From the NCBI RefSeq assembly GCF_012912105.1, contig NZ_QMEA01000055.1, positions 1 to 40,019 of the forward strand: a stretch of DNA of 40,019 nucleotides, read 5' to 3'. Shown piece after piece: positions 102-40,019 of the stretch. The notes under the pieces are model-generated. The model saw only the letters and a program-made list of their open reading frames with translations. It did no database searches and was not told the origin of the DNA. The stretch is from Brasilonema sp. UFV-L1. GTDB taxonomy: Bacteria > Cyanobacteriota > Cyanobacteriia > Cyanobacteriales > Nostocaceae. A program made the translations under genes and the position numbers. Within the stretch, counting starts at the first letter, position 1. Each line of letters starts with the position of its first letter.

Positions 102-2177
102 TTAGACAGATGATATAACCTGGTTTCTTGCTGCTTGGTTAAGAACTGTATCAGCAGCTTGGTACAGTATTTGTAGCTCTGTACCATCTTGGGGATACTG
201 AACGACTCCAGCACTGAAGGTTGCTTGAAACTGGATACCGTTGGCAGCTTGAAATTCTATTTGACGAAAAGCTTGCAGGGCTTGAGATAGCCGTTCAACT
301 GATTCACTTTTGCTCAACCCAGGCATGCCGATGACAAATTCCTTGCCTGCCCAACGACCAATCACATCCTCTTGTCGCAACGTCTGTCGCAACAGTTTCC
401 CCAATTGCGATAAGACTGTATCTCCGGCGGCGTGACCGTACTGTTGGTTGATTGGCTTGAGGTCGTCTACAGTTGCGATCGCAAGACAAAAAGGTTGCTG
501 ATTGCCATTACTCCATTTTAGCAGTTCAAGCAAGTCTTGGGTGGACTTCGGTCGATTGGCAACACCAGTTAAGGCATCAATTTGAGCCAAACTCCGTAGC
601 AAACGCGTTCTTTGCAGACGATTGAGAATACGGGTCACTAGTTCTGGTTCAACAATGGGCTTATTCACGTAATCGTCGGCACCTACCGCAAATACCTTGT
701 GCATGGTTTCGGCATCTGTGTGAGCCGTGAGAAACAAAATTGGTAGTCCACTCCAATACTGGTTATCACGGATTGCTTTGCATAAATCAATACCACTTGT
801 GGATGGCATTTCTACATCTAGAACCAAGAGATCCGGTTGTTCGGCTGCCAGGGTGTCCCAAAACCGGAGTGGATTGTCGAGCGTGGAAACTTTGAAACCC
901 CACGGCGGGAGTAAACTCGCAAGAGCCGTCAAGACCAGGGGGTCATCATCGACAATCATTACCTTTGCCTCTGAACTTACGTGATTTTCTTTACTTTTAT
1001 ATAGCAGTGTATTTATTGAGAAAAGATCAGGCAACTGTTGAGCATTCAGGTATTGTACTTGTTGGCGCAAAGCAACAACTAGCTGATGAAGGTGCTGTAC
1101 TTGATGTTGCTGAGGCGGCACTTGAGCTTGAAACTGTAGTTCGATTTCGCGAGCCAGATGAGAACCTTCATCCGCTCCAAACATACCCAATGAACCCACA
1201 AGTTTGTGAGCTGCTTGTTCTGCTTTTGACCGCAGTTTCTGATCTAGCTTCTCCCCAAGCAGTAACGTTGTTGCCTGCTCAATGATAGCAACGCGCTCTT
1301 CGATATCTTCTTTTGCTCGTTCCCAAATTTCCCTAACACTCGGTGCTGTCTGTTCTGCAATTGTAGATGTTGGATTTCTAAGTGCAGATGGATGCAAATG
1401 CATGCGGCTTACTGACTGTTCTATCTGCGTCTGGTTGGGTGTATCAGTCGTTACTGTTTTGGATTTTTTATTTTTCCCCGTCTTTGCTTGTTCTCCTTCC
1501 CTTTGAGTGGGCTTCAGTCTGTAGCCAATGCCATAAACTGTTTCAATTGGGTCATCTGAAACTCCTGCTACTCTTAGCTTCATGCGTAACCCCTTCAAAT
1601 GAGACCTGACTGTATCATCGTGTGGTGGTTCTTCAAACGACCACAAATGATCTATCAAGGAACTACAGCTAAAAATCCGGTGATGATTGCGAAGAAAAAG
1701 TTCTAGTAAACCGTATTCTTTGGGTGTTAAATGCACGGGTTGACCTTTCGAGATCACTTCGCAAGTACTGGGATCAACTTGCAGGGAACGCCACTCCAAC
1801 AGCGGTGGTGACGCTGAACTTCCGCGACGCAATAAAGCACGAATGCGAGCTAATAACTCGTGCAAGTTATAGGGCTTGTTCACATAATCATCTGCGCCTG
1901 CATCTAAACCCAAAACTTTATCCGTACTTGTGTTTTTGGCAGTCAACAGCATAATCGGTGTTTGATTGCCTTGGGAACGCAAACGCTGACACAGAGTAAT
2001 TCCATCTAACTTGGGCAAGTTGACATCTAGCACAATCAAGTCATAAGTCTGAACCTCAATGAGATCCCAACCTGCTTGACCATCTGTGGCAATTTCAACA
2101 GTATAATACTGGTTTTTCAGGACTTTAGCTAGTAATTCAGCAGTTAGTCTATTGTCTTCAACTAATAAAATTTTCAT
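102..2177 (-). CDS. Hybrid response regulator: REC-wHTH-HPt-REC-degenerate GGDEF
   Basis: This is a cytoplasmic multi-output signalling protein of 691 residues. An N-terminal receiver (about 1-118, phospho-acceptor D51, K101) is joined to an OmpR/PhoB winged helix (about 125-223, ending VYGIGYRLKP). A Lys/Thr-rich linker leads to an HPt-like helix bundle (about 280-375, with H324 in AAHKLVGSLG), a second receiver (about 404-525, D454, K506) and a diguanylate-cyclase fold (about 530-690). The signature GG[DE]EF is replaced by AGKEF at 610-614, so c-di-GMP synthesis is unlikely; a scaffold or sensory role is inferred. The two receivers and the HPt could form an internal phosphorelay that controls DNA binding. 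No histidine kinase gene lies beside it, so the partner is unknown. The start ATG opens directly on the receiver's first strand (MKILLVEDN), as is usual for the family. Confidence 0.93.
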   Translation of the reverse strand: MKILLVEDNRLTAELLAKVLKNQYYTVEIATDGQAGWDLIEVQTYDLIVLDVNLPKLDGITLCQRLRSQGNQTPIMLLTAKNTSTDKVLGLDAGADDYVNKPYNLHELLARIRALLRRGSSASPPLLEWRSLQVDPSTCEVISKGQPVHLTPKEYGLLELFLRNHHRIFSCSSLIDHLWSFEEPPHDDTVRSHLKGLRMKLRVAGVSDDPIETVYGIGYRLKPTQREGEQAKTGKNKKSKTVTTDTPNQTQIEQSVSRMHLHPSALRNPTSTIAEQTAPSVREIWERAKEDIEERVAIIEQATTLLLGEKLDQKLRSKAEQAAHKLVGSLGMFGADEGSHLAREIELQFQAQVPPQQHQVQHLHQLVVALRQQVQYLNAQQLPDLFSINTLLYKSKENHVSSEAKVMIVDDDPLVLTALASLLPPWGFKVSTLDNPLRFWDTLAAEQPDLLVLDVEMPSTSGIDLCKAIRDNQYWSGLPILFLTAHTDAETMHKVFAVGADDYVNKPIVEPELVTRILNRLQRTRLLRSLAQIDALTGVANRPKSTQDLLELLKWSNGNQQPFCLAIATVDDLKPINQQYGHAAGDTVLSQLGKLLRQTLRQEDVIGRWAGKEFVIGMPGLSKSESVERLSQALQAFRQIEFQAANGIQFQATFSAGVVQYPQDGTELQILYQAADTVLNQAARNQVISSV

Positions 2178-2352
2178 TGGGCTTTGTGATTGCTATCTCC
2201 AACGATACAAAGCAGTGATATAATCAAGGCAGATTGAGACAGCAATCCCAGCAACGACTATTGAGCAGGCGAGCCTTAATAAGGTTACAACGTTGTACTA
2301 CAGTGACGTTATCAATGAACAATTATCAATTCAAGGATCCAAACCCAGACCG

Positions 2353-2402
2353 CCACGCTCCGCAGCCTGCGGCACGCTTCGCTAACGCGGCGCTGCGCGA
2401 TT
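2353..2402. repeat. GC-rich REP-like dispersed repeat
   Basis: The sequence contains the nested inverted repeat CCGCAGCCTGCGG followed by GCTTCGCTAACGCGGCGC. It is far more GC-rich than its surroundings. Elements like this are common between genes in Nostocales; the family assignment is by eye. Confidence 0.5.
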
Positions 2403-2413
2403 CAATTACCAAT

Positions 2414-2454
2414 AATCAATGAACAGTTATCAAATCGATAACTGTTCATTGATT
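2414..2454. repeat. Perfect 18-bp inverted repeat with 5-nt loop
   Basis: Arms AATCAATGAACAGTTATC (2414-2431) and its exact complement (2437-2454) surround a 5-nt loop. There is no long T-run, so it is not a classical terminator. The arms contain the GTTATC-type motif also found in the tandem heptamer repeats of this window. Confidence 0.75.
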
Positions 2455-2626
2455 TTGACTTTCGAGTCATATCAGGCTAATAACTAGAAATGTCGAGATA
2501 ACTTGCCAAATCCCGACAACCAATTTGTGAACAAGCAAAGCGATACAAGACACAACAAAACTCCATATCAACCAGTTCGGTAATATGATGTTTCAGTTGA
2601 CTCTCTAAAAATCACTTTAGATTTAT

Positions 2627-2995
2627 TTATCTGCGGTATCCGTCATATCTGTCGTATCTATCATATCTATCGTATCTGCCTCTGTCGTCTCTGTCATATC
2701 TATTGTTTGTGCCATCGCTAACTGCAAACTCTGCCCGACAGCCATTCCTTACCCAAATACGGTTTCTGTTACGGCCCCAATTTCCTCTACAACTAGCATC
2801 AGACAATTGCCTGACAAACCTGACTCTGCCTCTTCCATCTATCTCACAAGTATTCCTTTCATTATTGCGGCTTTCACAAGTTATTATGTCTCGAGCAGAA
2901 GCTGAAGAAGTAAAGCCCAAAAGCGTACCTAGACTAACAGTGGTAGCCATCAAGGTAGCAGCGATTGTTGGAAAACGAATTACCATATTAAACAT
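2627..2995 (-). CDS. Secreted DUF3011-like protein with Arg-Tyr-Asp repeat tail
   Basis: The product has an N-terminal hydrophobic signal sequence ending near SSASA/RD. A compact Cys-containing domain follows (ITCESRNNERNTCEIDGRGR, then C..NWG and an RIWV.NGC motif) that resembles the DUF3011 family of small exported proteins of unknown role. The C-terminus is a repeat of Asp-Arg-Tyr units encoded by tandem DNA repeats at about 2633-2700. I chose the ATG at 2995; an upstream TTG at 3019 would add eight residues but has no ribosome binding site. The tail is charged and aromatic and its length is probably variable through slippage. Function is unknown; an envelope or periplasmic location is inferred from the signal. 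Confidence 0.75.
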   Translation of the reverse strand: MFNMVIRFPTIAATLMATTVSLGTLLGFTSSASARDIITCESRNNERNTCEIDGRGRVRFVRQLSDASCRGNWGRNRNRIWVRNGCRAEFAVSDGTNNRYDRDDRGRYDRYDRYDRYDGYRR

Positions 2996-3146
2996 ATTAA
3001 ATGTTGGTCTCTTGAACAAAAAAGATTAACTATACTCACTTATTGTTCCAAATTTATAACAGCATTCACCTGTATCTGAAGTCATAGAACTTAGCATCCT
3101 AAGCAGTTTTCAGACTTTTGGCTGAGAAGCCTCTTTTTCCTATAAT

Positions 3147-3177
3147 CACTGATAACTGATAGCTGATAACTGATGGT
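3147..3177. repeat. Tandem heptamer repeat (STRR, CTGATAA type)
   Basis: About four imperfect units of CTGATAA sit just downstream of xisI. Short tandemly repeated repetitive sequences of this kind are characteristic of heterocystous cyanobacteria. Confidence 0.65.
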
Positions 3178-3181
3178 TGAC

Positions 3182-3514
3182 TCAACCAACAGCAAAATCT
3201 GTGTATTGACGCATCTTCGGTGGGTCAATACCTAAGACAATATCGTGTTTTGGCACTCCGATTTCAACTAGCTTATTGGCAATACCGACTTCGGTTCCAT
3301 CCTGCTGTACCCAGATTTTTCCATCAATAATATCGAGATGAAGCACAACTCCATAGACACGCTGTGAATCACGCCAGCCGACGTATACTAATTGATAGCG
3401 ATCGCGCTGTTGATCAAAAATGAGCTCAGCTCGAATCCGGCTATCCCAAACCAACTGAGCGTGTTCACTTAGCAATCTTTGAATATGCTGACGATATTCA
3501 TCTACGGCTGCCAT
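3182..3514 (-). CDS. xisI: XisI-like fdxN element excision controlling factor
   Basis: This 110-residue protein matches the XisI family over its full length: an N-terminal helix (DEYRQHIQRLLSEHAQ), a central sheet with VYVGWRDSQRVYGVVLHLDI, then GKIWVQQDGTE and the conserved ending with LGIDPPKMRQYTDFAVG. XisI proteins were found as accessory factors for excision of the fdxN element in Anabaena and occur as many dispersed copies in cyanobacterial genomes, almost always with XisH. It overlaps the end of xisH by 13 bp, which points to one transcript and translational coupling. No XisF recombinase or fdxN sequence is in the window, so a role in excision here is not supported by context. Confidence 0.92.
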   Translation of the reverse strand: MAAVDEYRQHIQRLLSEHAQLVWDSRIRAELIFDQQRDRYQLVYVGWRDSQRVYGVVLHLDIIDGKIWVQQDGTEVGIANKLVEIGVPKHDIVLGIDPPKMRQYTDFAVG

Positions 3515-5037: not shown

Positions 5038-5124
5038 GGAGAGATGGCCGAGTGGTTGAAGGCGCAGCACTGGAAATGCTGTTTGGGGGCAACTTCAACG
5101 AGGGTTCGAATCCCTCTCTCTCCG
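5038..5124 (+). tRNA. tRNA-Ser(GGA)
   Basis: The acceptor stem GGAGAGA (5038-5044) pairs with TCTCTCC (5117-5123). The D arm GGCCGAGTGGTTGAAGGC is of the class II type, the anticodon loop CTGGAAA gives anticodon GGA, there is a long variable arm, and the T arm is GAGGGTTCGAATCCCTC. CCA is not encoded, as is usual in cyanobacteria. Confidence 0.97.
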
Positions 5125-5165: not shown

Positions 5166-6074
5166 CTAAAGGGCGACTTTTGAAAAAGCTAACTTTGCAG
5201 CACCTGCGATTCCTGCGAAGTTACCTAATTCTGCTGGCAATATTTGTAAACCCAGACGTGAAGTCGGTAGCACTCTGTGTTCAATTTCTGCTTTGACTGA
5301 TGGTATGAAAAACTCGGCACTTGCACTCAGTCCGCCACCAATGACAACAGCTTCTGGCGTCAGCACATAAATCAAGCTCGTTAATCCGATGCCCAGATAC
5401 CTACCATACTCATGCCAAAATGTCAATGCTTCAACATCTCCAGCTTTTGCAAGAGTGGCCAGTTCTGTTGGTTCTTTGCCCGTGCGACGACGAATTGCTG
5501 TCAGTGACAAATACTGTTCCAAAGAGCCTTGATTACCACTATTACACATTGGACCATCTGGGTTAAAGGTGATTAATCCCAACTCACCCGCTGCGCCAAA
5601 ATGACCAACAAACAGTTTGCCATCTAAGATAATTGCACCACCCACTCCAGTTCCTAAGGTGAGTAGAATAAAATTTTGGAAGCGGCGACCGACTCCTAAC
5701 CAAGCTTCTCCTAATCCTGCACAGTTGGCATCGTTAGCGATAATAGTAGGCTTGCCAGTTTTTGCTTCCAACCAATCAGCTAAGGGGACATCGTGCCATC
5801 CTGGTAAGTTAATGGCGAGTTTAGCAATGCGTCCTGCTGCATCTGCTGGTCCTGGAGTGCCAACACCAATCGCAATGCTATGATTTGGGTTGTCTAGTTG
5901 AGCGATTGCATCTACCATTGCGATCATAACTGCCTCTGGTGTAGCTGGTTGCGGCGTTGCAACAGTCAACGATTGTAAACAAGTGCCATCTGTGGCGACA
6001 CGCCCCAGCTTGATTGCTGTTCCACCTAAGTCAATACCAATGACTTGAGAATCTATCACTTTCAAACCCCTCAC
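5166..6074 (-). CDS. ROK-family sugar kinase, probable glucokinase
   Basis: This 302-residue cytoplasmic kinase is likely to phosphorylate glucose with ATP. It shows the N-terminal phosphate loop IGIDLGGTAIKLG, the substrate/catalytic segment ANDANCAGLGE with the catalytic Asp, and the second glycine-rich segment LTLGTGVGGAII. The ROK zinc motif CxCGxxGCxE is reduced to CNSGNQGSLE, with only the first Cys kept. Such a change is seen in some cyanobacterial glucokinase homologues, so I do not read it as inactivation. Substrate specificity cannot be fixed from sequence; N-acetylhexosamine or mannose are alternatives. The gene stands alone after tRNA-Ser on the opposite strand. Confidence 0.9.
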   Translation of the reverse strand: MRGLKVIDSQVIGIDLGGTAIKLGRVATDGTCLQSLTVATPQPATPEAVMIAMVDAIAQLDNPNHSIAIGVGTPGPADAAGRIAKLAINLPGWHDVPLADWLEAKTGKPTIIANDANCAGLGEAWLGVGRRFQNFILLTLGTGVGGAIILDGKLFVGHFGAAGELGLITFNPDGPMCNSGNQGSLEQYLSLTAIRRRTGKEPTELATLAKAGDVEALTFWHEYGRYLGIGLTSLIYVLTPEAVVIGGGLSASAEFFIPSVKAEIEHRVLPTSRLGLQILPAELGNFAGIAGAAKLAFSKVAL

Positions 6075-7886: not shown

Positions 7887-9260
7887 TTACAAGTTGCTTT
7901 CAATCAATTGGCGATACTCGCTCTTTTGCTTAACACCTTTGAGTTCCTTCAGTAGCTCTTTATTCTTAAAAAATTGAACTGTTGGTGTTCCTGTGACACC
8001 AGCGTTTTCAGCAATGTCTCGGTCTTTGTCGATGTCAATTTCGACGAAATGAATTTTACCGTCAAATTCATCCACAACTTTATTTAAGATGGGCTTGAGG
8101 GTATGGCAAGGACCACAACCAGGAGCAACGTATTTGACGATCATCAGGCGATCGCCCTCATGGAACAGCTTCCGCAGAGCATAACCACCCTGATGGCGGG
8201 TTGTTTTTAAATCAAATTCAGCGGCTAGCTGTTCCTCTGTTTTCTTCTCGGCTGGGTGTTCTAATTCATTATCTGGAGTTTCCGGTTTTTGGTGAAATTC
8301 CTGAATTAAGCCACTAGAAGACAACCAACGTTCTGCTAACATCGCCGCCGCACAGCCACTCCCTGCAGCGGTAATTGCTTGACGGTACTCATGGTCTTGT
8401 ACATCGCCTGCGGCGAAAACACCCTCTACGCTTGTTTCTGGAGAATTAGGCTTGGTAACAATGTAACCCACGTCATCCAGTTCTAATTGTCCCTTGAATA
8501 AGGATGTATTAGGATTGTGACCGATGGCGTAGAATAACCCCTTCACATGCAGTTCACTCTGTTGGCCAGTTTTAGTATTGCGGATTTTTATCCCTTCCAT
8601 GTGCTTGTCATTCCCAAACACATCCACCGCTTCTGTGTTCCAGTGAAGTGTGATTTTGGGATTATTTAAAACCCGGTCTTGCATGGCTTTGGAAGCCCGC
8701 ATCTTCTCGGTTCGCACCAGCAAATTTACCTTAGAGCCGTACTTGGTCAAGTAAATTGCTTCTTCCGCCGCCGAGTCGCCACCACCAACCACAGCTAATT
8801 CCGCTCCGTGGAAAATAGGTGTAGCACCGTCACAGATAGCACAAGCGGAAATTCCTCGACTCCAGAATTGATGTTCACTGGCTAAACCCAAGCGCTTTGC
8901 TGTCGCACCCGTGGCGATGACGATGCTGTGGGTTTTCAATTCTCGTTCCTCAGAACGGATTGTAAAGGGACGCTGATTCAAATCAACTTCAATAACATCT
9001 TCTGTATATAACTCAGCCCCCCAACGTTCTGCTTGAGCCTTCATCCGATCCATCAGATCAGGTCCGGTAATTCCTTCGGGAAACCCAGGAAAATTCTCCA
9101 CCTCAGTCGTTGTCATCAACTGACCACCAGGTAACCCCCCGGCTTGAAAACCCTCAAAAACAACAGGTTTGAGGTTAGCCCGTCCTGCGTAAATGGCAGC
9201 TGTGTACCCTGCTGGACCAGAACCGATAATCACTACATTTTCTACTGTCGGGTTGGTCAT
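7887..9260 (-). CDS. ntrC: NADPH-thioredoxin reductase-thioredoxin fusion (NTRC)
   Basis: This is a bifunctional redox enzyme of 457 residues that passes electrons from NADPH to 2-Cys peroxiredoxins and other targets. The FAD site [12 protein letters not shown] is at 11-22, the reductase active site CAIC is at 140-143, the NADPH site [11 protein letters not shown] follows, and a hinge leads to a C-terminal thioredoxin with CGPC at 382-385 and the cis-Pro motif GTPTVQFF. The open frame runs upstream to 9419, but the extra 53 residues are Cys/Arg-rich and unlike the family; [15 protein letters not shown] at 9260 is the natural start. Fusions of this kind are found in plants, many cyanobacteria and few other bacteria. 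It stands alone, divergent from the pilin gene. Confidence 0.96.
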
Positions 9261-9453
9261 GATTGATTTTGCAAACTCATAACGACTACGACTTAGTATA
9301 ACATACCAGACACAGCCTGATAGAAAATTCCTTGCTCTGGGAATACTAAAGCCAGGGTGTACTTTTAGCTTGAGTTGCATACAGCGTTCACAATCCATGC
9401 GACAAAGCCGTGAACTCAAAAGGTGCTAGGAAAAATCTCACAAATATAAGAGT

Positions 9454-16391: not shown

Positions 16392-16397
16392 CAATTC

Positions 16398-17878
<1,481 letters not shown>

Positions 17879-18881: not shown

Positions 18882-18954
18882 TCCAGGGTGCAGGAGTTGA
18901 ACCTGCCTAGGGCGAATTATGAGTTCGCTGCCTCAACCGCTCGGCCAACCCTGG
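18882..18954 (-). tRNA. tRNA-Ile(CAU), lysidine type (elongator Met less likely)
   Basis: On the minus strand, acceptor CCAGGGT pairs with ACCCTGG, the D arm is GCCGAGCGGTTGAGGC, the anticodon arm GCGAA-CTCATAA-TTCGC gives anticodon CAU, the variable loop is 5 nt, and the T arm is GCAGG-TTCAACT-CCTGC. The loop and D arm closely resemble the chloroplast trnI-CAU gene, whose C34 becomes lysidine to read AUA. Confidence 0.88.
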
Positions 18955-32029: not shown

Positions 32030-32614
32030 ATGACATTACTCGTAGTAGCGACAGGAAATCCAGGTAAGTTGCGTGAGATGCAAGCTTACCTAAGTGATTG
32101 TGGTTGGGAATTAACTCTCAAACCAGAAGACTTGGAAATTGAGGAAACAGGAGATACTTTTGCCGCCAACGCCTGCTTAAAAGCATCTCAAGTTGCACAA
32201 GCAACAGGAAACTGGGCGATCGCCGATGATTCTGGTTTGCAAGTCGATGCGCTTAATGGCGCACCAGGAGTGTATTCTGCACGTTATGCCAAAACTGATG
32301 GCGATCGCATTGCCAGAGTGTTGAAAGAACTAGGCGATACACCAAATCGACAAGCGCAATTTGTTTGTGTTGTGGCGATCGCTCGTCCAGATGGTACAAT
32401 TGCTTTACAATCCGAGGGTGTTTGTCGTGGTCAAATTCTCCACGCGCCTCGTGGAAGTGGTGGTTTCGGCTATGATCCAATTTTTTGCCCTCAAGACAAG
32501 CAATTGACATTTGCTGAAATGACACCAGAGTTGAAGCGTTCAGTCAGTCATCGAGGCAAAGCTTTTGCAGCCTTACTTCAAAAATTGCCTCATTTAAACA
32601 ACACTCATTGTTAG
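32030..32614 (+). CDS. rdgB: XTP/dITP pyrophosphatase (RdgB/HAM1)
   Basis: This housecleaning enzyme hydrolyses ITP, dITP and XTP to the monophosphates. Its 194 residues carry VVATGNPGKLREM, EETGDTFAANACLKA, ADDSGLQVDALNGAPGVYSARYA, GSGGFGYDPIF and FAEMTPELKRSVSHRGKA. The length is normal. The ATG is only four bases after a run of heptamer repeats, so no usual ribosome binding site is present. The stop codon (32612-32614) lies within the next heptamer array. Confidence 0.96.
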   Translation: MTLLVVATGNPGKLREMQAYLSDCGWELTLKPEDLEIEETGDTFAANACLKASQVAQATGNWAIADDSGLQVDALNGAPGVYSARYAKTDGDRIARVLKELGDTPNRQAQFVCVVAIARPDGTIALQSEGVCRGQILHAPRGSGGFGYDPIFCPQDKQLTFAEMTPELKRSVSHRGKAFAALLQKLPHLNNTHC

Positions 32615-32683
32615 TTGTTAGTTGTTAGTTGTTAGTTGAATTTTCATTTAACTATAAACGACTAACGACTAACCACTAACTTC
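32611..32683. repeat. Tandem heptamers TTAGTTG and complementary CTAACGA block
   Basis: Four exact TTAGTTG units (32611-32638) are followed by ACTAACGACTAACCACTAAC (32655-32674 region), which is largely complementary. The transcript could fold back as a hairpin after rdgB. Confidence 0.75.
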
Positions 32684-32740
32684 TAACCATGAAACGAGTG
32701 AACGGTGAACAGTTATCTGTGGATTTTGAACAACAAGTAC

Positions 32741-32770
32741 TGATAACTAATAACTGATAACTGATAACTG
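32741..32770. repeat. Tandem heptamers CTGATAA abutting glnB
   Basis: Three to four CTGATAA/CTAATAA units run up to the stop codon of glnB (32771-32773, minus strand). Confidence 0.7.
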
Positions 32771-33562
<792 letters not shown>

Positions 33563-35787: not shown

Positions 35788-37641
35788 ATGAGAAAGCTAA
35801 TATTATTTTGCTTATTTGTCATCGGGCTGAGTGTTGTCCTGTTTAATTTTATTAATTTTCAGGGACTAGCAGCCAAAGGAGAGTTTGAGACAATAGTGCT
35901 AAATTTTCGGGAAGATATTCCCAAAGAGGTATTGCAACAGGATTTGCAAGCTATTGCTCAACAGTACAACGTGACTCCCCAACTGGACAATCAATTTTCC
36001 GCTAAAGAGAACGTTTATATCATCAAGGGCGATCAGCAGCGACTCAAAGAACTGAAAAAGTCGCCATTTGCCCAAGCAATGGATTTTATCGAACCAAACT
36101 ATATCTACAGGTTTCCAAAACCAGGTAAAGTCACTTGGTTAGGAGAACTGTTGGTGCCCCAAGGTGCTGACGAAGAGAAAGTTGCTGATACAGGTCCTAA
36201 CGATCCTTATTACAGTAAGCAATGGAATTTGCACAATATTCATGTTCAAGGCGCATGGACTCAAACCAAAGGTAAAGACATTACAGTTGCAGTCATTGAT
36301 ACTGGTATCACTCGTGTCCGTGACCTCATAGAGACAGAATTTGTCGATGGCTACGACTTTGTTAACGACAGAGTAGAAGCTAAAGACGACAATGGTCATG
36401 GCACTCACGTTGCTGGTACGATTGCCCAATCGACTAACAACAGCTATGGCGTAGCTGGAATTGCCTACGAAGCTAAGCTTATGCCTCTCAAGGTACTCAG
36501 TGAGTATGGCGGTGGTACTGTTGCTGATATCGCAGAAGCGATTAAGTTTGCTGCTGATAACGGTGCAGATGTTATCAACATGAGCTTAGGTGGTGGCGGT
36601 GAAAGTCGGCTCATGGAAGATGCAATTGACTATGCTTATAGAAAAGGCGTCGTCATCATTGCTGCTGCTGGTAATGAAAACCAGAATTCCGTTGCTTATC
36701 CAGCGCGTTATCCCCATGTTATTGGTGTTTCAGCATTAGGTCCAGATGGAGAAAGAGCACCTTATTCTAACTTTGGTGCTGGAGTGGATATTTCTGCCCC
36801 TGGTGGTAGTGATGCAGGCAAGATTTTGCAAGAAACCATCGATCCTGATAACAAGGGTACTGCAGTGTTCATGGGCTTCCAAGGTACCAGCATGGCTGCA
36901 CCCCACGTTGCTGGTGTTGCTGCATTAGTCAAAGCTTCTGGCGTGAAAGAACCAAACCAAATCCTTGAAGTTCTCAAGCAGTCAGCACGAACTATTCAGG
37001 ATGACGGTTTGAACTACTATGGCGCTGGACAACTCAATGCAGAAGCAGCAGTACAGTTAGCCACTCAAGGACAAATCACCTTCCAAGATTTCTTTCGTTG
37101 GCTGCGAGATAACGGCTATCTCAACCCGCGCTTTTGGATTGATGGCGGTGCAGTGGCGTTGTTACCCAAGATTTTGATGGTTATCGGTTCTTATCTTCTG
37201 GCTTGGTTTTTACGGGTTTATTTCCCATTCCGCTGGGGTTGGACTTTATCTTGGGGATTAATCACTGGTAGTTCTGGATTATTTTTCCTGAAGGGATTCT
37301 ATATTTTTGACCTTCCCCAATGGCCATTCCGCTTACTGGGAAGTTCTATTCCAGAATTAGGGAATACCCTTCAAGGAACAAATGCCTTTAACCCACTGTT
37401 TGCTAGTGTACTGATTCCTTTAGCCTTAATGGCACTCTTGCTAGGAAATCCAAAATGGAAGTGGTTTGCCATTGGTTCATCACTAGGTGTAGCAGCGTGT
37501 TTAGCGGTGAGTGCGATATCAGATCCCGAAGTTTGGGGATTGGGCAGTAGTATCCTAGCTCGTCTGTTCCTCATTGTTAATGCCGTATTATGTTTCGGCT
37601 TAGCTCGCTTAGTAGTCAAAAACGAAGAACAACCAGCCTGA
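35788..37641 (+). CDS. Subtilisin-like serine protease with five C-terminal membrane helices
   Basis: This is a 617-residue S8 protease. After an N-terminal signal or anchor (LILFCLFVIGLSVVLFNFI) there is an I9-like propeptide (about 32-110). The catalytic domain (about 150-430) has the complete triad: Asp171 (VAVIDTG), His204 (NGHGTHVAG) and Ser368 (GTSMAAPHVAG), with the oxyanion Asn296 (AAAGNE). The last 170 residues hold five hydrophobic segments, so the protease is tethered in a membrane with the catalytic part on the outside or in the lumen. The role of the membrane domain is unknown. Confidence 0.94.
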   Translation: MRKLILFCLFVIGLSVVLFNFINFQGLAAKGEFETIVLNFREDIPKEVLQQDLQAIAQQYNVTPQLDNQFSAKENVYIIKGDQQRLKELKKSPFAQAMDFIEPNYIYRFPKPGKVTWLGELLVPQGADEEKVADTGPNDPYYSKQWNLHNIHVQGAWTQTKGKDITVAVIDTGITRVRDLIETEFVDGYDFVNDRVEAKDDNGHGTHVAGTIAQSTNNSYGVAGIAYEAKLMPLKVLSEYGGGTVADIAEAIKFAADNGADVINMSLGGGGESRLMEDAIDYAYRKGVVIIAAAGNENQNSVAYPARYPHVIGVSALGPDGERAPYSNFGAGVDISAPGGSDAGKILQETIDPDNKGTAVFMGFQGTSMAAPHVAGVAALVKASGVKEPNQILEVLKQSARTIQDDGLNYYGAGQLNAEAAVQLATQGQITFQDFFRWLRDNGYLNPRFWIDGGAVALLPKILMVIGSYLLAWFLRVYFPFRWGWTLSWGLITGSSGLFFLKGFYIFDLPQWPFRLLGSSIPELGNTLQGTNAFNPLFASVLIPLALMALLLGNPKWKWFAIGSSLGVAACLAVSAISDPEVWGLGSSILARLFLIVNAVLCFGLARLVVKNEEQPA

Positions 37642-38553: not shown

Positions 38554-38609
38554 AAAAAACCCCCCCAGTAGCAGGTAGCCGACTAGGGAAGTGAGTTATC
38601 AGGGTGCAT
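38554..38609 (-). ncRNA. nsiR1: NsiR1-like sRNA, copy 1
   Basis: About 56 nt. The predicted 5' end is GATGCACCCTGATAACTCAC and the 3' end is a GC-rich hairpin (CCCTAGT...ACTGGGG) followed by a T-run. The promoter has TAGTAT (minus strand of 38616-38621) and a TCCGGA box at 38645-38650, which is the DIF-type heterocyst motif. Boundaries are predicted. Confidence 0.75.
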
Positions 38610-38615
38610 CTACCA

Positions 38616-38650
38616 ATACTATGTTCTGTGAGTAACTGGGGTGTTCCGGA
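38616..38650 (-). promoter_or_regulatory. DIF-type promoter of sRNA copy 1
   Basis: TCCGGA (38645-38650) and TAGTAT -10 (38616-38621), 23-bp spacing. Confidence 0.65.
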
Positions 38651-38688
38651 CAAAAGCGCGAAAATTCAGTCCGTTTTGTGTCAAAAAC

Positions 38689-38743
38689 AAAAAAATCCCC
38701 AGTAGCAGGTAGCCGACTAGGGAAGTGAGTTATCAGGGTGCAT
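38689..38743 (-). ncRNA. nsiR1: NsiR1-like sRNA, copy 2
   Basis: Nearly identical to copy 1 over a 134-bp period, with the same 5' part, the same terminator hairpin type (CCCTAGT...ACTGGGG) and a T-rich run. The TCCGGA box is at 38779-38784. Confidence 0.75.
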
Positions 38744-38749
38744 CTACCA

Positions 38750-38784
38750 ATACTATGTTCTGTGAGTAACTGGGGTGTTCCGGA
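38750..38784 (-). promoter_or_regulatory. DIF-type promoter of sRNA copy 2
   Basis: TCCGGA (38779-38784) and TAGTAT -10 (38750-38755). Confidence 0.65.
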
Positions 38785-38821
38785 CAAAAGCGCGAAAATT
38801 CAGTCCGTTTTGTGTCAAAAA

Positions 38822-38878
38822 CAAAAAAAATCCCTAGTAGCAGGTAGCTAACTAGGGAAGTGAGTTATCAGGGTGCAT
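38822..38878 (-). ncRNA. NsiR1-like sRNA, copy 3 (promoter decayed)
   Basis: The RNA part and terminator (CCCTAGTTAGCTACC...) are kept, but the -10 region TAGTATTGG is shortened to AGCAC and no TCCGGA follows. It is probably silent, or transcribed only by read-through. Confidence 0.55.
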
Positions 38879-39353
38879 CTGTGCTATGTTCTGTGAATCA
38901 CTAAATCTTTAACCTGACGCCGTAATTCTCCATCCGCGCCCCGCATTCTCCACGCACGCTCGTCTTACGGAGAGGGCAGCACGCCAGATGCCGAGGGCGG
39001 GGGGCTTTGGGGTCCCATTAACTTGTAATGAGGCACCGCAGTTTTTCCGGTTTTAATGAAGCGGAATGAGATTTGCCACTGGAACGCGTAAGCACACTCG
39101 ATGTAAATCTTCGCCAAAAAATCAATATACTCCTGTGGAAGACGGGAGTCTGCCTGGGTTCTAGCTTGCTAGATAAAGGTCGTAAGACCAGAGAGGGAGA
39201 GTAAGACCATCACCGACACTAGTGTCGGACTTGCAGCAATGTAAGTACCATAAGTGGCATCTGCCTGCGAGACAGGAAGCCCCATCCCTGAATGCGGTGG
39301 GGTACTTCACAAGATAAATAAGTTAAGATTGGGGAGAATGTTGTCTCAGCCAT
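38879..39353. other. Insertion between two halves of the sRNA array
   Basis: This 475-bp stretch of different base composition interrupts the array. It starts with GC-rich repeat sequence (about 38920-39010) and continues into a probable IS200/IS605-type right end (about 39110-39310). No intact gene is seen. Confidence 0.55.
39110..39310 (+). mobile_element. Probable IS200/IS605-type (TnpB) right-end remnant
   Basis: Three successive hairpins are seen: the perfect palindrome CCGACACTAGTGTCGG (39213-39228), CCTG/CAGG (39264-39276) and GAAGCCCCA/TGGGGTACTTC (39276-39308), ending in TTCAC. This layout resembles the 3' end and guide-RNA scaffold of IS1341/TnpB elements in cyanobacteria. No tnpB frame is intact. 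Identification is from memory of such ends, not from a search. Confidence 0.45.
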
Positions 39354-39408
39354 AAAAAAAACCCAAGTAGCCGAAAGTCTACTAGGGGTTTCAGTTATCA
39401 GGGTGCAT
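39354..39408 (-). ncRNA. nsiR1: NsiR1-like sRNA, copy 4
   Basis: The 5' part GATGCACCCTGATAACTGA is shared with all copies. The terminator hairpin is CCCCTAGTAG...CTACTTGGG with a T-run of eight. TCCGGA is at 39443-39448. Confidence 0.78.
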
Positions 39409-39414
39409 CTACCA

Positions 39415-39448
39415 ATACTATGTTCTACAGATAACCACTTTCTCCGGA
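39415..39448 (-). promoter_or_regulatory. DIF-type promoter of sRNA copy 4
   Basis: TCCGGA (39443-39448) and TAGTAT -10 (39415-39420), 22-bp spacing. Confidence 0.65.
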
Positions 39449-39496
39449 TAAATTCTACAAAATAGAAGTAAAAATATTTTCTTTAGGTTGAAAAAT

Positions 39497-39551
39497 AAAA
39501 AACCCCCAAGTAGCCGAAAGTCTACTAGGGGTGTCAGTTATCAGGGTGCAT
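39497..39551 (-). ncRNA. nsiR1: NsiR1-like sRNA, copy 5
   Basis: Repeats copy 4 with a 143-bp period. The terminator hairpin CCCCTAGTAG...CTACTTGGGG has one mismatch and is followed by TTTTTTATTTTT. TCCGGA is at 39586-39591. Confidence 0.8.
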
Positions 39552-39557
39552 CTACCA

Positions 39558-39591
39558 ATACTATGTTCCACAGATAACTGCTTCCTCCGGA
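39558..39591 (-). promoter_or_regulatory. DIF-type promoter of sRNA copy 5
   Basis: TCCGGA (39586-39591) and TAGTAT -10 (39558-39563). The arms CAGTTATC and GATAACTG flank the -10 and start site. Confidence 0.68.
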
Positions 39592-39639
39592 TAAATTCTG
39601 CAAAATAGAAGTAAAAATATTTTCTTTAGGTTGAAAAAT

Positions 39640-39694
39640 AAAAAACCCCCAAGTAGCCGAAAGTCTACTAGGGGTGTCAGTTATCAGGGTGCAT
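39640..39694 (-). ncRNA. nsiR1: NsiR1-like sRNA, copy 6
   Basis: Identical to copy 5 across the RNA and promoter. It is the copy nearest to the right edge and, if hetF follows as in Nostoc, would lie closest to (and antisense with respect to) the hetF leader. Confidence 0.8.
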
Positions 39695-39700
39695 CTACCA

Positions 39701-39734
39701 ATACTATGTTCCACAGATAACTGCTTCCTCCGGA
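39701..39734 (-). promoter_or_regulatory. DIF-type promoter of sRNA copy 6
   Basis: TCCGGA (39729-39734) and TAGTAT -10 (39701-39706), 22-bp spacing, with CAGTTATC/GATAACTG arms around the -10. Confidence 0.68.
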
Positions 39735-40019
39735 CAATTTTGTGTTGATCGTAAATACTTGCCATTTACAAACTACCGGAAAAATTCAGAGGGTGTTAAC
39801 AAACTAGTACAAAGGACGCAGAAATAAAGCTACCATTCAAGAAGGAGCAAAAGCTTGTCATGTAAGCTGAGTGTGCCCTTAGCGCACACTCGGCGTCAAG
39901 CATGCCGCAAGCATACGCAAGTGCAATGAAAACGGTACTAAGGTTGGGTAAAACAAGCGAAAAATCTGCCGAGCCAGAGGAAAAATAGCCCTGTCAACAC
40001 CCCTGCCTAAAGGCGAGGG
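39735..40019. other. Right edge: palindromes, no gene
   Basis: A hairpin GAGTGTGC/GCACACTC lies near 39868-39891. A second hairpin starts at 40000 (CCCCTGCC-TAAA-GGCGAGGG, cut by the window end) and is of a type often seen at IS ends in cyanobacteria. The segment may be part of a long 5' leader of a gene beyond the window. Confidence 0.4.

Follow-up and report, generated by a model that had tools for sequence, protein, structure and literature searches.

An NsiR1 array in Brasilonema sp. UFV-L1 and the distribution of NsiR1-type RNAs among HetR-bearing cyanobacteria

The stretch of DNA analysed here, referred to as the window, is 40,019 nucleotides long and carries near its right-hand end six minus-strand copies of the small RNA gene NsiR1. 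We are highly confident that these belong to the NsiR1 array of a heterocystous cyanobacterium, with at least seven sRNA genes opposite hetF, and that the array would work by a mechanism like that of Nostoc 7120. The direct evidence consists of family membership by covariance model, TCCGGA promoters in five of the six copies, hairpin and T-run ends and synteny with hetF; from Nostoc PCC 7120 we infer that the intact copies are induced early in cells turning into heterocysts in this strain. The array is NsiR1, an established family, and is ordinary for its kind.

Six NsiR1 copies in two blocks

An earlier note on this DNA, drawn from the sequence, had described six minus-strand repeats and had proposed that they are NsiR1-like. 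The repeats are borne out at 38554-39700 with correct coordinates, and a search with the Rfam model RF02399 matched all six on the minus strand. The covariance model, run on the window, gave 42.7-62.2 bits against a gathering cut-off of 39 bits; the E-values of 4.4e-10 to 2.9e-5, with the whole window as search space, exclude a chance match for every copy. No other Rfam family was found in 38880-40019 at E<=1. A mobile element or a CRISPR-like array was rejected as the nature of the repeats because RF02399 fits them. RNAs of about 55 nt with a shared start and a hairpin plus T-run end had also been claimed, and these are seen in all six copies: each RNA starts with GATGCACCCTGATAACT at the 5' end and closes with a 3' hairpin and a T-run. 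The predicted lengths are 54-57 nt and the folding energies -13.2 to -19.5 kcal/mol (five distinct sequences, two copies being identical).

Tandem Repeats Finder resolved the direct repeats into two blocks, one with a 134-bp period at 38563-38880 and one with a 143-bp period at 39352-39734. These correspond to two RNA types, B and A, respectively. Type A, all on the minus strand, comprises the copy at 39640-39695 (predicted RNA 56 nt; RF02399 60.9 bits, fold), that at 39497-39552, whose RNA is identical to the former (60.9 bits), and a slightly divergent one at 39356-39409 (58.0 bits, fold). Their TCCGGA (DIF1) boxes, located on the same strand by exact pattern, lie at 39729-39734, 39586-39591 and 39443-39448. 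Type B, likewise on the minus strand, is represented at 38690-38744 (62.2 bits, fold; box at 38779-38784) and by the last copy of the array at 38554-38610 (55.9 bits, fold; box at 38645-38650). The third type B copy, at 38825-38879 (42.7 bits), has an intact RNA body, lacks TCCGGA and has an altered -10 region.

The two blocks are separated by an insert at 38904-39340. Nothing equivalent is present in the NsiR1 arrays of three genomes of the same genus, and the insert contains pieces repeated elsewhere in the genome. One part of it, 39161-39310, is 99% identical to positions 4924-5073 of contig C123, and its end may resemble IS200/IS605-type ends. The presence of two sequence types and of a copy without promoter looks like the outcome of unequal crossing-over and insertion.

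Reading of the sequence confirmed a TCCGGA 22-23 bp ahead of TAGTAT in all but one of the six copies, and a scan with the exact pattern returned the same five; the box lies about 39 nt upstream of the RNA. In Nostoc 7120, DIF1 (TCCGGA) is reported to be required, together with the -10 region, for heterocyst-specific expression (PMC6133370), and DIF1 expression of hetR, patS and patX to depend on HetZ (PMC7377430). TCCGGA at the -35 region is thus present in five copies and absent from 38825-38879, and this copy, with its 5' end at 38879, is probably not transcribed on its own. At the corresponding edge of the block, TCCGGA is likewise missing from one copy each in two genomes of the genus (L076 at 4495, L084 at 5795), so the loss may predate this strain.

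Elsewhere the window holds a gene for a P-II nitrogen regulatory protein (32771-33109; NF008111, below its own cut-off) with short tandem repeats of 7 bp nearby (32608-32774), a TPP riboswitch at 16395-16491 (RF00059, 64.8 bits) and two tRNA genes at 5038-5124 and 18882-18954 (Rfam).

hetF across a probable assembly gap

The earlier note had placed hetF on the plus strand just beyond the window. The window is one complete contig, C288, which ends at 40019, so the gene cannot lie inside it, and it is indeed absent. Another contig of the same genome, C301, opens with an NsiR1.1-type copy, GATGCACCTTGAT, on the minus strand with its 5' end at 374 (RF02399 53.5 bits, TCCGGA upstream). On its plus strand follows an ORF at 743-3331 that encodes HetF (NCBIfam NF045509 equivalog, 1440.5 bits) with a CHAT domain inside, 369 nt downstream of the NsiR1.1-like copy. 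The predicted gene was thus found on C301 from position 743, the join resting on synteny across the gap. Among 15 fetched NsiR1-bearing loci of relatives, hetF adjoins the RNA genes in 13, two of them outside the family; the exceptions are two loci of a single genome (G032). In seven of the 15, the array is flanked by hetF and by the left-hand genes of the window (S8 protease, DUF5818 and a small thioredoxin-like protein). The flanking genes of C288 and C301 therefore enclose one hetF-array locus in seven relatives, so the join is well supported, and most likely it is an assembly gap that parts the C288 array from the C301 hetF. Several relatives, some of them outside the family, have kept the S8 protease of the window (35788-37641, with DUF5942) next to the hetF-NsiR1 locus.

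By synteny with the relatives' loci, the array thus stands upstream of hetF on the opposite strand. The 28-bp repeat at the contig break (39992-40019) recurs with the same bases at the ends of C317 and C335 and probably belongs to the border of a mobile element at which the assembly broke. The strain has at least seven NsiR1 copies, six on C288 and one on C301. Only the C301 copy, nearest hetF, is placed so that it would run antisense to a hetF leader; the six window copies lie farther off and would act in trans.

These loci bear on two other readings of the repeats. The array could be a decaying, functionless tandem repeat that is maintained by duplication and hitch-hiking beside hetF, and the promoter lost from one copy, the insert that divides the array and the small divergence among block copies, as after recent duplication, would agree with this. 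However, five copies retain RNA body, -10 region, TCCGGA and spacing, and these elements reappear next to hetF in the 13 loci, including the two outside the family, which makes decay very improbable. We consider it just as improbable that the repeats work in cis on the plus strand, as hairpins of a long hetF leader and not as separate minus-strand RNAs. Plus-strand hairpins would indeed be upstream of hetF, but TCCGGA, -10 regions and T-runs all point to minus-strand transcription, the window copies are at least 1 kb plus the gap away from hetF, and the Nostoc 7120 RNAs are reported to be minus-strand (PMC9045159).

NsiR1 arrays upstream of hetF are already known. In Nostoc/Anabaena PCC 7120, NsiR1 (RF02399) is described as an RNA of about 60 nt encoded on the minus strand, opposite hetF, in 12 tandem copies with a DIF1 promoter for each (PMC9045159), an organization like that of the window; as here, a divergent copy lies beside hetF and near-identical groups farther out (PMC9045159). 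The Brasilonema array differs from these 12 copies in having at least seven, in the insert that parts its two blocks with their two sequence types, and in one copy that lacks a promoter. Nodularia spumigena CCY9414 is likewise reported to carry short tandem repeats upstream of hetF, 12 in number (PMC3610870); copy number and block structure differ from the window array. Other sRNAs of heterocystous strains are the Nostoc 7120 transcripts NsiR8, NsiR9 and 4547237r (PMC4734099). The last is given as about 51 nt long and up in stationary phase, while NsiR8 and NsiR9 differ from NsiR1 by their size of 171 and 122 nt (PMC4734099).

For Nostoc 7120 it is reported that NsiR1.1, antisense to the hetF leader, lowers HetF, and that the central NsiR1 copies repress alr3234, itself a brake on commitment (PMC9045159). 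By analogy, each intact Brasilonema copy would be switched on early in cells turning into heterocysts, through its HetR/HetZ-dependent DIF1 promoter, and the 5' end of the RNA would be kept single-stranded for pairing. The hetF-adjacent copy would act as antisense to the hetF leader, leading to less HetF and a build-up of HetR, and the remaining copies may act in trans, for example on an alr3234-like hetP relative. In 24 HetP-family loci, fetched from relatives and covering 21 of 40 chosen genomes, no seed complement of nine or more bases was recognised at a start codon, and three scattered seed-complement matches were found. HetP-family matches were absent from the other 19 genomes, HetR-positive ones included, so hetP is not a universal target. 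The perfect 11-base seed complement, TCAGGGTGCAT, occurs ten times in the strain's own genome, nine times inside sRNA genes, with about four expected by chance; perfect 11-base target sites are hence not enriched.

NsiR1-type RNAs at other loci

The genome contains a further RNA of this kind on contig C280 at 9255-9305 (near 5301 of locus L011), which scores 49.8 bits with RF02399, above the cut-off, and has the DIF1 box TCCGGA. Transcription of this RNA leads away from cobM (TIGR01465), the cobM ORF beginning 84 nt upstream of the RNA 5' end; lgt is about 2.9 kb distant, and other ORFs intervene. As a single copy that adjoins cobM and does not belong to an array upstream of hetF, it was filed as a paralog and not as NsiR1 proper. 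Short copies of 51-53 nt were collected from 26 loci, with cobM present in 24 and lgt in 18, and among the matches listed a cobM-side copy occurs in at least 20 of 23 same-family genomes. A scan of named genomes for the short cobM-type copy returned at least 116 stretches. Among the 80 loci listed, cobM is in reach of 75 and lgt of 68, and 83 of 85 copies have exact TCCGGA at -39 or -40; the two exceptions among these matches are Nostoc sp. MG11 (TCCTGA) and Aliterella atlantica. Nostoc 7120 is not among the 80 loci listed from the at least 116 stretches. Carriers among the matches listed include Coleofasciculus, Limnofasciculus, Trichocoleus, Symplocastrum and Symploca, genera that are not known to form heterocysts, and Aliterella, which is unicellular. 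Coleofasciculus sp. LEGE 07092 has five tandem NsiR1-type copies beside cobM (L166, 1028-1421).

NsiR1-like RNAs with another promoter are encoded in the strain's own genome on C293 at 44281-44334 and, as a tandem pair, on C169 at 354 and 520 (L012, L013); the two contigs may be neighbours in the real chromosome. They lie beside gatB and argJ and share the 5' end GATGCACCCTGATGA. Two of these copies score below the RF02399 cut-off, with 36.8 and 33.8 bits, and the remainder is not among the matches listed. None of 27 copies of this type in fetched loci, some fetched twice, has TCCGGA within 45 nt. In 25 fetched loci gatB stands upstream in 16, argJ downstream in 12 and both in nine, with one place fetched twice (the repeat is counted among the 12 with argJ) and L335 giving no row; the gene names come from NCBIfam for the strain's own genes. 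That one 5' end is preceded by two promoter types suggests that selection keeps the RNA 5' end and not the promoter. The plain alternative is that the two types share this end by common descent through duplication.

From each of 40 genomes outside the strain's own family, one listed RF02399 match was fetched. GATGCACCCTG is present in all 40 loci, and the best copy per locus has exact TCCGGA in 27 and TCCGGA with at most one mismatch in all 40. hetF is divergent beside the RNA in 12 loci, in one of which (L221, G045) tblastn detects only the C-terminal part, and lgt occurs in three, two of them also with cobM. In four of the 40 the RNA is divergent from a family-5 solute-binding protein gene (PF00496). 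The same neighbour was noted at L210, L213, L214, L241 and L248 (L214 by Pfam, the others by blastp), perhaps indicating a link of the RNA to peptide uptake at such loci.

In all, 154 distinct copies were compared. They had been selected by GATGCACC(C/T)TG, so that conservation of this part is by construction; how often TCCGGA occurs, and which bases precede the RNA, does not depend on the selection pattern, except for a final TA/GTA in some scripts. In the lowest-energy fold the first 12 nt are unpaired in 127 of the 154, and a hairpin lies near the 3' end in 153. Exact TCCGGA precedes 74 of 86 copies in the Nostocaceae group and 43 of the 68 other copies; four control windows had none.

Co-occurrence with HetR

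The distribution was surveyed in 242 Cyanobacteriia genomes, including that of the strain. RF02399 matched at E<=0.001 in 128 genomes, 124 of them above the Rfam cut-off, and HetR_C (PF18460) in 122. All 122 HetR-positive genomes have an RF02399 match, as against 6 of the 120 HetR-negative ones. In two of the HetR-positive genomes (G196, G268) the match belongs to the type that lacks TCCGGA and does not reach the cut-off. Of the six HetR-negative carriers, G174 and G180 have matches below the cut-off, G129 is only 62% complete and G213 contains an 87-aa HetR fragment near a contig end; in G045 and G060 a protein search found no HetR. A match below the cut-off appeared in the E. coli control as well, so weak matches are poor evidence on their own. 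Independently of the Rfam model, a scan for the exact pattern TCCGGA-N24-36-GGTAGATGCACC found it in 117 of the 242 genomes, namely 114 of the 122 HetR-positive and three of the 120 HetR-negative ones (G045, G129, G213); the reversed pattern gave zero in all 242. For the type without TCCGGA, the pattern YATNNTRTGNTWAGTAGATGCACC was found in 52 genomes, every one HetR-positive, and its control gave zero.

Twenty families are HetR-positive and 19 HetR-negative, and presence of the RNA is nearly uniform within each. The genomes are therefore not 242 independent observations, the Fisher value overstates the evidence, and shared ancestry limits the correlation. It is possible, if rather unlikely, that NsiR1-type RNAs and HetR are merely co-inherited in the same clades without a working link, as the few independent events among the near-uniform families and the retention of the RNA without a HetR match in G045 and G060 would allow. 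Against this, the RNAs bear the promoter motif that is HetR/HetZ-dependent in Nostoc 7120, exact in those 114 HetR-positive genomes, and the RNA is missing from several HetR-less families within the same order.

We put forward, at even chances, that NsiR1 is a heterocyst-specific outgrowth of an older HetR/HetZ-linked sRNA family of filamentous cyanobacteria. In this proposal, the shared 5' part GATGCACC(C/T)TG would be retained for pairing or for protein binding, whereas the hairpin would drift. A DIF1-driven branch would have long-lived homes beside hetF and cobM/lgt, and the other, mostly single-copy and with another promoter, would have its place between gatB and argJ. Where no heterocysts form, the RNAs would be a readout of HetR-PatX and would act through HetF on cell division. 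From a non-heterocystous filament, an RNA like NsiR1 has already been published: RNA162 of Limnospira indica PCC 8005, an organism that has hetR but makes no heterocysts, is described as NsiR1-like and 57 nt long, and differs from the array in being a single annotated gene (PMC8400943). Our searches gave no publication on the copy beside cobM, on the gatB-argJ type or on the co-occurrence with HetR; the founding NsiR1 studies, which lay outside our search, may describe a wider distribution, part of which may already be visible in the Rfam listing.

The window array documents a known regulator in a further genus and illustrates how such arrays change, by block duplication, insertion and promoter loss. 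The wider survey matters more. Less expected is its result that relatives of the RNA go with HetR well beyond the heterocyst formers. What hetR and patX do in filaments that form no heterocysts has been called a mystery (PMC11298460). If NsiR1-type RNAs are DIF1-driven in such filaments too, they would provide a short, abundant transcript measurable in hetR, hetZ and patX mutants and would point to hetF as an old target.
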